This document shows positions 39,846 through 44,895 of a stretch of DNA of 64,000 nt, piece by piece. Both the position numbers and the translations under genes were made by a program. Position 1 is the first letter of the stretch. The number at the start of each line of letters is the position of its first letter. Origin of the DNA: Pseudoalteromonas tunicata. Its GTDB lineage: Bacteria > Pseudomonadota > Gammaproteobacteria > Enterobacterales > Alteromonadaceae. The stretch is from the NCBI RefSeq assembly GCF_002310815.1, contig NZ_CP011033.1:310001-374000 (forward strand), given 5' to 3'. The notes beneath the pieces are model-generated. The model was given only the letters and a program-made list of their open reading frames with translations. It had not been told where the DNA came from and ran no database searches.

Positions 39846-40795
<950 letters not shown>

Positions 40796-40819
40796 AATAA
40801 GCTAACTCTTGCTTGCATA

Positions 40820-40985
40820 ATGCGGGTTCGAGACCCAGTAGACTATTCGAGTGTGATGCTTGGAGTCTTTTGTGGCGTTCATTCTTGTTATCGGTCTCTC
40901 AACAGAGGATCCATCGCTCAATCGAACTACCACAAAAGAGAGCTTTAGTTGCAGCTAAAGCCTGGGTCTCACATTACCCGAACTC
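40820..40985 (-). ncRNA. Candidate IS110 bridge RNA
   Basis: Upstream of the transposase the minus strand can fold strongly. GAGACCCAG/CTGGGTCTC closes the structure, GCTTTAG/CTAAAGC forms a first hairpin, and CTTTTGTGG/CCACAAAAG closes an arm with an internal loop and an upper CTCT/AGAG hairpin. The 3' strand of that internal loop carries ATAACAAG, identical to the attC flank next to which both IS copies sit. ATAGTCT near the 3' stem also matches the IS terminus. These are the places where IS110 bridge RNAs carry target and donor guides. Ends are approximate. Confidence 0.55.
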
Positions 40986-41021
40986 GGTTTAAAAGAATAA
41001 TTTGATGGGTTTATTATCCAT

Positions 41022-41112
41022 ACAAGTCGTTTAAAAGGACAAAAAACAGTTGGCTTTTGCTCCTTCGTCGCTAATTTTAGCCAACTATTTTATTGCCTCT
41101 TAACGAGGCGTT
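41022..41112 (+). other. attC site, right part (left part beyond the IS110)
   Basis: From ACAAGTCG through the arms AACAGTTGGC and GCCAACTATT to GAGGCGTT, it parallels the intact attC at 41664-41758. Together with AGTTAACAAG at 39812-39821 it forms the attC of the HEPN cassette, now split by the IS. Confidence 0.75.
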
Positions 41113-41259
41113 GAGGCTGTAGAATTACTAATTTGGTCAAGTTTTTAGGTGATTTAAGGGGTCTCAAATGCATTGCTTAGTACGAGATAATCGCTTAGAA
41201 AGCGATACAGGAGGTCAAAAAAATGGCCAAATTTATAAAAATAGAAATTCTACAGTCTC
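41113..41259 (+). mobile_element. 147-bp terminal-inverted-repeat element, copy 1
   Basis: Left end GAGGCTGTAGAATTACT and right end (reverse complement) GAGACTGTAGAATTTCT are near-perfect inverted repeats. It is flanked by GTT on both sides. Inside are the hairpin ATCGCTT/AAGCGAT in most copies (AATCGCTT here) and AGGAGG followed nine bases later by ATG. No transposase fits in it. Copies 2 and 3 are the same length and over 95% identical by eye. Confidence 0.75.
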
Positions 41260-41262
41260 GTT

Positions 41263-41409
41263 GAGGCTGTAGAATTACTCATTTGGTCAAGTTTTTAGGT
41301 GCTTTAAGGGGTCTCAAATGCATTGCTTAGTACGAGATTATCGCTTAGAAAGCGATACAGGAGGTCAAAAAAATGGCCAAATTTATAAAAATAGAAATTC
41401 TACAGCCTC
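41263..41409 (+). mobile_element. 147-bp terminal-inverted-repeat element, copy 2
   Basis: In tandem with copy 1, separated only by GTT, and followed by GTTATGT, the start of the next cassette. The small reading frame that starts behind its AGGAGG (MAKFIKIEILQPR) leaves the element and ends in a TGA that overlaps the GTG start of the 72-residue cassette gene. Confidence 0.75.
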
Positions 41410-41434
41410 GTTATGTGTCTAGGAGATTTCGGTT

Positions 41435-41653
41435 GTGATTATCAAGTTCAATGTATTTGGCAAACAAATGTCCGTTCTTAAAAAAAATGAAGAATGGCAA
41501 CTATTTAATGAATCAGATACAGGTATTCGTTCACGAGTCTACGACGTTGTTATCCCATCTGATTTAGAGTCTACTGAACTTGGAACATACCTCGATGATA
41601 TATATCATGAATATTCATCTGAAAAGCATCCAAATGTTATAGAACTAGGTTAG
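41435..41653 (+). CDS. Small cassette protein, 72 residues
   Basis: Begins MIIKFNVFGKQMSVLKK and ends acidic (YHEYSSEKHPNVIELG). It has no signal peptide, is a probable small alpha/beta fold, and is of unknown function. Small proteins of this type recur in Vibrio-like integron cassettes as I recall, but I cannot verify the family. The GTG start has AGGAGA nine bases upstream inside the cassette and also overlaps the stop of the frame coming from the 147-bp element (GTGA), so translation may be coupled. Confidence 0.7.
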   Translation: MIIKFNVFGKQMSVLKKNEEWQLFNESDTGIRSRVYDVVIPSDLESTELGTYLDDIYHEYSSEKHPNVIELG

Positions 41654-41663
41654 AGTAATAGCC

Positions 41664-41758
41664 ACATAACAAGCATTTAAACAGGGACAAATAACAGTTG
41701 GCTGTCGTTCGTTCCTCACTATTTTAGCCAACAATTATTTACCCATTAAATGGGCGTT
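41664..41758 (+). other. attC recombination site (cassette of the 72-residue gene)
   Basis: R'' box ACATAAC at 41664-41670 is complementary to the cassette's own start GTTATGT at 41410-41416. The arms CAGTTGGC and GCCAAC, and GCATTT/AAATGGGC near the ends, can fold into the usual attC cruciform. It ends in GGGCGTT, where the third 147-bp element begins. Confidence 0.82.
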
Positions 41759-41905
41759 GAGGCTGTAGAATTACTCATTTGGTCAAGTTTTTAGGTGATT
41801 TAAGGGGTCTCAAATGCATTGCTTAGTACGAGATTGTCGCTTAGAAAGCGATACAGGAGGTCAAAAAAATGGCCAAATTTATAAAAATAGAAATTCTACA
41901 GCCTC
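41759..41905 (+). mobile_element. 147-bp terminal-inverted-repeat element, copy 3
   Basis: Same length and ends as copies 1 and 2, again with GTT on each side (41756-41758 and 41906-41908). Removing it joins GGGCGTT to ATGTG, an ordinary attC/cassette junction. Its outward reading frame stops after MAKFIKIEILQPRYVY. Confidence 0.75.
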
Positions 41906-41955
41906 GTTATGTGTATTGAGCTTGACTCTATGCATTGTCCAAAATGCAAGAACAG

Positions 41956-43539: not shown

Positions 43540-44895
43540 ATCAAGAAAAGAGTGGCGGGAGTTGACTCCCGCCGGCCTCTGATGAATTCCGTACTTGAAA
43601 TACCTTAACACCCACACGGATTTTAAACCCTTGTCTCAACCAGGTTATTTTCAAGCGGGAAAACCGTTTACTCATCAACATGTGTTAGCTAACAGTGGTG
43701 TGAACAACCCGTTACTATTTAGGTAATGGTTGAATAAGCAACCATTTATAAATAACGTTATGGTATGAAATCTTCATGTTAGGCCTTTATATGTTGGGGT
43801 TGGTACATCACATCTTTTTGCAACAAGTGCCAAACAATCCGTGCAAGTTTATGGGCAATGGCAACCACCGCTTTATTAAAACCACGTCGATGTGCGACCG
43901 ATTCACCCCACACCTTGAGCGCATCGTTTTCATTTTTATAGCGATTAAGGACGGCTCTGGCGCCATGAATGAGTTGCTTGCGTAAATAACGATGGCCTCG
44001 CTTTGATATTTTGCCCATATAACTATGTGAACCTGATGCATATTGGCGAGGTGTTATTCCCAACCAAACAGCAAAATATTTTGCGCTTTTAAATGCTTGC
44101 CCTTTATCAATGCAGGCAATTAACGCGGAAGCGATGATGTAACCAACTCCTGGCACACTAAGCAGTATTTCTGCTTGTGGAAACTGGGTTAAGTTTTGTT
44201 TTAATTTGGCTTCGATTACTTTTAACTTGGCTTTAAGCCCTAAAAACTCTTCATGCAACATGGCAACCAGAGATTTTATATTTTCGCTCACGTGTGAGCT
44301 TGCCGCGACGATATGGGCCATGACAGAAAAGCAGCGCTCTCCTTGACTGAAAATAATCCCAAAGTCACTCAATAAACCATGTGCTTGGTTTGTTAATGCG
44401 GTTTTGTTTTTAATTAACCGTTCACGAATACGATGCAATGCCATGACTTCTTGTTGCGCTTCACTTTTTATCGGCACAAATCGAATGTTAGGTCGTTGAC
44501 TTGCTTCAACAATGGCTAGAGCATCATTGCGGTCATTTTTATTCCCTCGAACAAAGGGCGTAACATGTTGAGCGGGGATTAGGCAGACAGTATGCCCTAA
44601 TTGGGTTAATTCTCGACCCCAATAATGGGATGAATAACAGGCTTCCATCACCACTTGCGTGGGCGGTTGCTCTGCCATAAAAGCATAAAAATCACGCCTA
44701 GCTAATCGTTGATTAAAAACAGGTTTTAGATGTTGATTCACTCCACACGCTTGGAAAACAGATTTTGCTAAATCAATGCCAATAGTTCTACACTTCATGA
44801 TGGATGCTCCTAGAATAACTGAGTTTCACTTCCAGTTTGGCGCATAGACGCCGTTTTGGGAGTGTCCATCTCATCATCCATAAATATCTCGTTGA
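43540..44895 (-). mobile_element. IS110/IS1111-family element (ends approximate)
   Basis: The element consists of the intact transposase at 43779-44798, a long non-coding stretch behind it (including the strong hairpin GGCGGGAGT/ACTCCCGCC at 43554-43573) and a short upstream end. The upstream block 44829-44889 recurs at 51363-51423, which marks it as part of the IS. A long downstream end is where IS1111-subgroup elements carry their bridge RNA, so one may lie in 43540-43778. Confidence 0.6.
43779..44798 (-). CDS. IS110/IS1111-family transposase
   Basis: An intact 339-residue protein with the DEDD motif start GIDLAKSVFQ, the conserved KNDRNDALAI segment, and a C-terminal Transposase_20 domain (LLSVPGVGYIIASALIACI, WLGITPRQYASG, KRGHRYLRKQLIHGAR). 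It is a different element from the IS110 at 39.8 kb. It has no frameshift, so this copy could be active. Confidence 0.92.
   Translation of the reverse strand: MKCRTIGIDLAKSVFQACGVNQHLKPVFNQRLARRDFYAFMAEQPPTQVVMEACYSSHYWGRELTQLGHTVCLIPAQHVTPFVRGNKNDRNDALAIVEASQRPNIRFVPIKSEAQQEVMALHRIRERLIKNKTALTNQAHGLLSDFGIIFSQGERCFSVMAHIVAASSHVSENIKSLVAMLHEEFLGLKAKLKVIEAKLKQNLTQFPQAEILLSVPGVGYIIASALIACIDKGQAFKSAKYFAVWLGITPRQYASGSHSYMGKISKRGHRYLRKQLIHGARAVLNRYKNENDALKVWGESVAHRRGFNKAVVAIAHKLARIVWHLLQKDVMYQPQHIKA

Follow-up and report, generated by a model that had tools for sequence, protein, structure and literature searches.

The 147-bp repeat that occurs three times in the window, the whole stretch of 64,000 nucleotides analysed here (C2:310001-374000, in a genome of two contigs and 4.96 Mb), is very probably a non-autonomous MITE which, to judge from sequence comparisons, would be mobilised in trans, the transposase being an IS1182-like DDE enzyme encoded in the same genome. 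A sequence-only reading of the window had described three near-identical copies with inverted-repeat ends and GTT on either side, and this description holds. Copy 1 (41113..41259), copy 2 (41263..41409) and copy 3 (41759..41905), the query for the genome search, all lie on the plus strand and are 97, 99 and 100% identical to the query, each with GTT to its left and right. Copies 1 and 2 form a tandem pair with GTT alone between them (41260..41262), a putative target duplication, and the ordinary junction ...GGCGTTATGTG remains upon removal of copy 3 or of copies 1 and 2 together, as the same reading had expected. The inverted-repeat end GAGGCTGTAGAATT, with up to two mismatches allowed, is found six times in the 64-kb window versus 0.50 expected and versus a maximum of three in 100 shuffles of the window, one of the six ends being GAGACTGTAGAATT, the right end of copy 1.

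The three window copies are a small share of a genome-wide population. With copy 3 as the query at least 29 matches were obtained among the best 40 of 78 candidates scored, of which 25 are full copies with lengths of 146-148 bp, one is truncated (C1:2663388-2663492) and the other three, of 22 bp, are IS left ends. The full copies reside on both contigs, all 25 in the same orientation relative to attC, with a mean identity among copies of 96% and a lowest identity of 89%. The table of flanks, which had been proposed as a check, gave GTT as the left triplet of 24 copies and GAT for one, and GTT as the right triplet of 24 copies and GTG for one. Two of the 25 full copies come after another MITE; apart from the window, tandem insertions occur at C2:194523/194673 of this genome and, in other species, at loci L065, L110, L121, L133, L134 and L136. 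One array of the same genome (L038 9696-11407; C1:1383696-1385407) has the order MITE-cassette-MITE-cassette-MITE with a period of 782 bp, which might have arisen either by unequal crossing-over between MITEs or by IntI movement of a MITE-led cassette. The GAGGCTGTAGAATT-type end motif has 82 matches in the genome; single matches at C1:1136005, C1:1841329 and C2:257795 are without GTT and look like chance. Further left-end-like sequences with one mismatch are located right after GTT at C1:2157069 and C1:2219418, both on the minus strand and outside the arrays studied.

The 147-mer matched in five of 108 genomes of the genus, the present one included, with seven candidates scored per genome; G092 possesses two full copies, and G004, G066 and G096 gave weak partial matches, those of G004 and G066 being elements of a 146-bp type described below. 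In the plasmid collection the 147-mer had no counterpart at E 1e-5, and the exact-end pattern was absent from the contigs of other genomes, a pattern that copies with one altered end base would escape.

The larger autonomous relative with the same ends, the search for which had likewise been suggested, is present intact in the genome as an IS1182-like DDE IS of about 1.86 kb (L040) with an ORF of 521 aa and the junctions GGGGCGTT|GAGGCTGTAGAATTACTCATTT ... TCTACAGGCTC|GTTATG. The 147-bp element is shorter than 500 bp and contains no ORF of 80 aa or more, as is typical of a MITE, and it has 14-bp ends in common with the IS, the first 22 bp of which are identical to the MITE consensus. At least 11 left ends of the larger IS with the same ends as the MITE occur in the genome in one orientation, and all 11 examined that continue into transposase sequence start directly 3' of GTT. 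The transposase combines the Pfam domains DUF772 and DDE_Tnp_1_6, and the best NCBIfam model is IS1182 (NF033551; residues 56-517), with a score of 257.6 bits that lies under the curated cut-off of 270; as domains and best model point to IS1182 yet the score stays below this cut-off, the element is called IS1182-like. Its identity to the transposases of the named IS1182-like plasmid elements ISPa22, ISPpu20, ISBf3 and ISMsp1 is 22-25%.

Sequence comparison with the IS relatives indicates that the GTT around the element is a target duplication, since the triplet follows the target. In Colwellia (L093) the attC core is GGCATT and the IS is flanked as ATT|IS|ATT. In Catenovulum (L085) the IS breaks a reading frame as AAT|IS|AAT, and at L086 and L178 reading frames are broken as GTT|IS|GTT. 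When the element and one triplet are removed, the joined flanks (900 bases) are open over 300 (L085), 169 (L086) and 299 (L178) residues; L102 and L130 appear by eye, from one end only, to be further insertions in coding sequence. The target duplication of the MITE is thus read through its IS relatives, the MITE's own GTT being indistinguishable from a fixed part of the element. The earlier proposal of a MITE at the attC core with a 3-bp duplication is thereby borne out with the exception of its 'strict' specificity, as IS relatives also enter reading frames: the attC specificity of the element family is strong, but not absolute.

In the window the insertions adjoin two attC sites on the plus strand, site 1 (41016..41112), the last base of which adjoins copy 1, and site 2 (41663..41758), the last base of which adjoins copy 3. 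They score 99.2 and 91.5 bits, respectively, with the attC covariance model R1, for which 22 occupied sites of this genome, these two among them, had served as the alignment. Even at E up to 0.05, R1 recognizes only these two attC sites in the window, which makes the cassette array here a very short one. A small gene cassette (41410..41758, plus strand) separates copies 2 and 3 and has an ORF of 72 codons at about 41435-41653, assigned by eye. When an empty orthologous site was sought for this cassette, the outcome was a 77% DNA relative of the ORF in the same genus (G066:C1:654945-655177), and the context of a further locus, L180, was not comparable.

Throughout the genome, 35 of 40 upstream flanks carry R'' (TAACAA or similar, by a simple pattern) 50-122 bp before the insertion, and the other five consist of two tandem MITEs and three flanks matched by the attC model. 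The alignment of 22 flanks yields a hairpin with compensatory changes in 15 of 20 pairs. R1 finds at least 42 sites at E <=0.01 in the genome among the best 150 of 3767 candidates scored, 28 with an element of the MITE/IS group immediately 3' and 14 without, three of the latter with a group II intron; this occupancy is not unbiased, as R1 came from occupied sites. These attC sites are scattered in many short arrays over both contigs, at 1.38, 1.43, 2.04, 2.25-2.27, 2.38-2.41, 2.46 and 2.66 Mb of C1 and at 0.06, 0.10, 0.19, 0.35, 0.43 and 0.92 Mb of C2, a distribution that might be due to recombination between MITE/IS copies. The genome encodes one intact intI and three further broken ones.

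The target sites tend to carry the motif CCnnTKAnnnnGGCGTT, the 3' (L'-R') arm of attC, represented in the window by CCTCTTAACGAGGCGTT at 41096..41112 (C2:351096-351112) for copies 1 and 2 and by CCCATTAAATGGGCGTT at 41742..41758 (C2:351742-351758) for copy 3, both identified by motif scan on the plus strand. The consensus over 97 distinct sites, for which only left ends after TT were kept so that L085 was dropped, reads CC (-17/-16), T (-13), T or G (-12), A (-11) and GGC (-6 to -4) followed by GTT, with weaker preferences elsewhere on the left side. A weight matrix derived from other species separated 31 occupied from 20 unoccupied attC sites of this genome (AUC 0.83, p 3.7e-5), and the reverse test on 61 occupied and 53 unoccupied attC sites of other species gave an AUC of 0.70 (p 1.4e-4). 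The motif itself is present in 26 of 31 occupied versus 4 of 20 unoccupied sites of this genome (Fisher p 7.5e-6) and in 48 of 61 versus 23 of 53 in other species (Fisher p 1.0e-4); as it was read off after the 97 sites had been seen, R1's 22 among them, near independence can be claimed for the cross-species matrix tests alone. These tests used R1 matches to approximately E 0.003 in the own genome and 0.0045 in the others; shadow matches on the opposite strand and one partial match were excluded, and some attC sites with a group II intron were counted as unoccupied.

Scanned over the whole genome, the motif occurs 37 times versus six times for a reversed control. Thirty-three of the 37 are in attC, 28 with a MITE or IS, three with a group II intron and two with neither. 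The remaining four, in open frames of 122-341 residues, are all empty; this is no evidence on specificity, as insertions in open frames may be lost by selection. Where the element interrupts a reading frame or the site is not clearly an attC, matrix scores extend from 20.4 (L102), 10.7 (L086) and 3.3 (L173) down to 0.7 (L163), -0.4 (L178) and -9.8 (L130). The motif is therefore not the whole rule, as there are low-scoring insertions and, in other species, 23 of 53 unoccupied attC sites bear it.

A mechanism can be proposed in which the transposase would bind the terminal inverted repeats of 14-22 bp and select the 3' arm of attC as the target. A cut across the GTT core, staggered by 3 bp, would then duplicate the triplet, and the element would land on the IntI crossover triplet, usually in one orientation. 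The exchange point of IntI is G/TT. Since an insertion leaves the arm and one GTT unchanged on its left, the site remains open to another copy, and such re-insertion leads to a tandem pair with GTT in between without any special mechanism. The ends, the target and the preference for it, the triplet that varies with it, the orientation, the parent IS and its spread can be read from the sequences, while trans-mobilisation by the transposase, its biochemistry and the effect on cassette movement are what we infer here.

Three other explanations have to be weighed against a transposase-mobilised MITE. That the 150-bp unit would be an ORF-less cassette inserted by IntI, its attC being the palindrome at its own junction, had been put forward beside the MITE and has become most improbable. 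Insertion exactly on the crossover triplet in a single orientation and the intact intI in the genome would suit such a cassette, but a transposase-bearing IS has identical ends and an identical target, and an IntI event is an unlikely source as the triplet varies with the target, ATT or AAT flanking some IS relatives, and reading frames are hit. Furthermore, the MITE lacks an attC of its own with the order R''-L''-L'-R', as R1 has no match inside or across it at E up to 0.05, and intI is above cut-off in 32 of 39 IS-bearing genomes searched and has no match above it in seven, the assemblies of which may be incomplete. The suggested check of whether the junction palindrome folds like an IntI substrate places GTT in a hairpin loop: the single strand of the tandem junction is predicted to form an inner stem of 14 pairs with GTT as the 3-nt loop (-11 kcal/mol), whereas the bottom strand of one attC of the window has a minimum-energy fold, itself a minor part of the ensemble, with the triplet paired at the base of the stem. 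Cumulatively, a MITE that depends on an attC-targeting IS for its mobility is by far the likelier identity of the element than an IntI cassette. It is also improbable, though less so than IntI insertion, that the array retains the element as a regulatory or cargo repeat with a function, such as providing the next cassette with a ribosome site and mini-ORF (MAKFIKIEILQPR). A core of 60 bp is common to the 147-bp, 146-bp and a third family while the rest has diverged, and AGGAGGT-N7-ATG is found near the right end of the 147-bp family, both of which would agree with such a role. On the other hand, the mini-ORF is absent from the 146-bp family and frameshifted by a base loss in one of 25 copies, the core is flipped in L065, promoter-like sites between 41000 and 42000 number four versus 3.4 in shuffles with none inside the MITE, and no Rfam match beyond chance was obtained; over the window nothing was above the gathering score, and 41100-41920 gave chance-level matches with E 0.25-0.89.

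The third explanation retains the transposase and alters what it recognizes, namely the folded attC, or IntI on it, instead of a double-stranded motif, the arm consensus then merely reflecting the local attC sites. This is possible, although on balance unlikely. The targets are indeed attC sites of approximately 50 to 122 bp with varied central parts and arms that covary in 15 of 20 pairs, some weak-scoring sites in reading frames show by eye a hairpin beside GTT, and IS1272 of the IS1182 family takes inverted repeats as targets (PMC5678879). The target attC is itself an imperfect inverted repeat, although the preference tracks one of its arms. Yet the arm motif is rarer in unoccupied attC sites, in this genome as well as in other species (see counts above). 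In addition, one MITE is inserted at an attC site where a group II intron starts one base past the second GTT, so that a complete R' box may be dispensable if the intron was not the later arrival.

The IS has relatives in marine gammaproteobacteria which occupy the same position. A scan of genome contigs identified at least 77 distinct IS loci, from the best 80 of 85, with hosts in Pseudoalteromonas, Shewanella, Colwellia, Psychromonas, Marinomonas, Psychrosphaera, Motilimonas, Paraglaciecola and others, and the search of 394 genomes of the order matched 26 at E 1e-40, with up to three candidates scored for each, and added relatives including some of 43-46% identity. Among the best 120 of 5500 protein relatives (8000 best candidates scored) are proteins of Shewanella, Psychromonas, Colwellia and others with the name 'transposase' or 'IS1182 family transposase'. 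Plasmids carry three close IS relatives, on large replicons of two Pseudoalteromonas and a Catenovulum, and the phage collection has no IS relative at E 1e-20. The flank table covers 95 IS loci, 77 from the contig scan and 18 from the order search, whereby L149, L152, L156-L162, L168-L170, L174 and L175 were kept out as apparent repeats or because no end was reached. Distinct left flanks (n=65) end in GTT in 62 cases, the exceptions being ATT (L093), AAT (L085) and L099 with TGA and no recognisable left end; distinct right flanks (n=64) begin with GTT in 62 cases and with ATT and AAT in one each. For 52 of the 65 left flanks of other genomes, the match of the attC model, which was searched around 73 loci, stops exactly where the IS begins.

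The targeting of attC seems to be old in this IS clade, few distant members of which were sampled, since relatives of 43-46% identity (L163, L164, L167) likewise begin directly 3' of GTT. The left end of L164 coincides with the end of an attC model match and L167 is attC-like by eye, whereas the site of L163 is not clearly attC. The orientation is not absolute, as a relative of 60% identity on the Catenovulum adriaticum plasmid pCadTS8_1 (L189) is inserted in the opposite orientation at an attC-like GGCGTT|..|GTT and the core of the L065 MITE is flipped.

The 147-bp element is not the only MITE with these ends. A second family of 146 bp has four copies in the genome with the same ends and sites, all four at GTT, and in other species related elements with these ends measure 145-154 bp at L058, L059, L069, L077, L106, L110, L121, L133 and L136. 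Other lengths are 146 bp (L065), 177 bp (L072) and 176 bp (L080), in addition to a 59-bp remnant at L121. Many of these MITEs measure 146-147 bp (L065, L069, L077, L106, L110 and this genome), and those of 176-177 bp (L072, L080) have an unrelated interior; a constraint on MITE length is possible, with common descent accounting for part of the similarity. A core of approximately 60 bp is common to the 147-bp, 146-bp and L065 elements, since in every pairing of single representatives none of 300 letter shuffles did equally well, and is inverted in the L065 MITE. L072 and L080 have an interior in common that differs from this core. The exact core pattern was found in this genome alone among the 394 genomes of the order. 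Our best guess is that the core reflects shared descent of the MITEs with reversible orientation. Comparison of MITE interiors with the parent IS showed no similarity above shuffles (in the best case four of 60 shuffles were as good); as the interior is unlike the IS beyond the repeats, simple internal deletion from the parent IS is unsupported.

A wider scenario, doubtful as a whole, is that this DDE clade has long made the attC 3' arm its home, has spawned several MITE families with a 60-bp core not found in the IS, and occupies, together with the group II intron, 31 of the 33 arm-matching attC sites. The R' box has the consensus GTTRRRY, and because the element starts with GAG, which is near the RRR of this box, cassettes upstream of it may retain their mobility, with the MITE perhaps riding as the leader of the next cassette; the parasite would then mark the integron and at the same time travel on it.

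With respect to known systems, IS1182 and IS1272 have a transposase with DUF772 and DDE_Tnp_1_6 domains, as is the case here. According to PMC5678879, IS1272 targets inverted repeats, some IS1182 members target palindromes as stated in a review quoted therein, and new IS1272 insertions replace the target without duplication, in contrast to the 3-bp duplication and the attC target described here. The ISAjo2 group of the IS1202 family likewise consists of DDE IS which insert in one orientation at a tyrosine-recombinase site, pdif/dif, but with another transposase family, a 5-bp duplication and a distance of 5 bp from the XerC site, (PMC10132070), whereas the MITE sits on the crossover triplet. 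IS1111-attC elements such as ISKpn4 and ISPst6 use an RNA-guided DEDD enzyme of the IS110/IS1111 family and thus belong to another family; IS110-type DEDD transposase and subterminal repeats are replaced here by a DUF772/DDE transposase and terminal repeats. Group IIC-attC introns are likewise attC-associated group II introns (PMC7923331); they are ribozyme retroelements, and the group II intron of this genome has a position other than that of the MITE, GTTA|GTGCG. MITEs linked to Acinetobacter class 1 integrons flank whole integrons (PMC10969869), while the MITEs here are inside attC. Titles and abstract beginnings of the open-licence literature yielded no attC-specific IS1182-like or MITE element, and a named IS of the same clade may exist.

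The targeting of attC was known before for RNA-guided IS110/IS1111 elements and group II introns, and here an ordinary-looking DDE IS and its own MITEs target attC and land on the crossover triplet itself. This shows the extent to which the cassette reservoir can be invaded and offers for study a natural DDE transposase of compact size, the preference of which extends across approximately 18 bp. In integron annotation, GAGGCTGTAGAATT after GGCGTT is a simple marker for misread cassette junctions.

Group II introns and IS110-type elements are both present in this genome as well. The window contains an IS110-family element separate from the MITE (39846..41019, minus strand, candidate far boundary), with its transposase frame broken into two ORFs, that abuts the R'' of attC site 1; a second IS110-family transposase gene is located at 43779-44798 (minus strand; NF033542, 320 bits). 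At five places in the DNA examined, the window and L041, L043, L044 and L048, the R'' side of an attC is directly adjoined by the same IS110-type end (...GGGTTTATTATCCA|TACAAG), which looks like that of an IS1111-attC element, whereas the MITE occupies the GTT of R' in the same genome. Origins of the MITE as a group II intron remnant or as a MITE of IS110/IS1111-attC elements were considered and rejected, as its ends are those of the IS1182-like IS. Group II intron 5' ends number at least six (C1:1379986, 2463415, 2668673; C2:59763, 191526, 924514), and RF02005 of Rfam was matched at both intron places scanned. At five places in the DNA examined the intron 5' end is directly at attC as GCGTTA|GTGCG, and at the sixth a MITE lies between the attC arm and GTTA|GTGCG.
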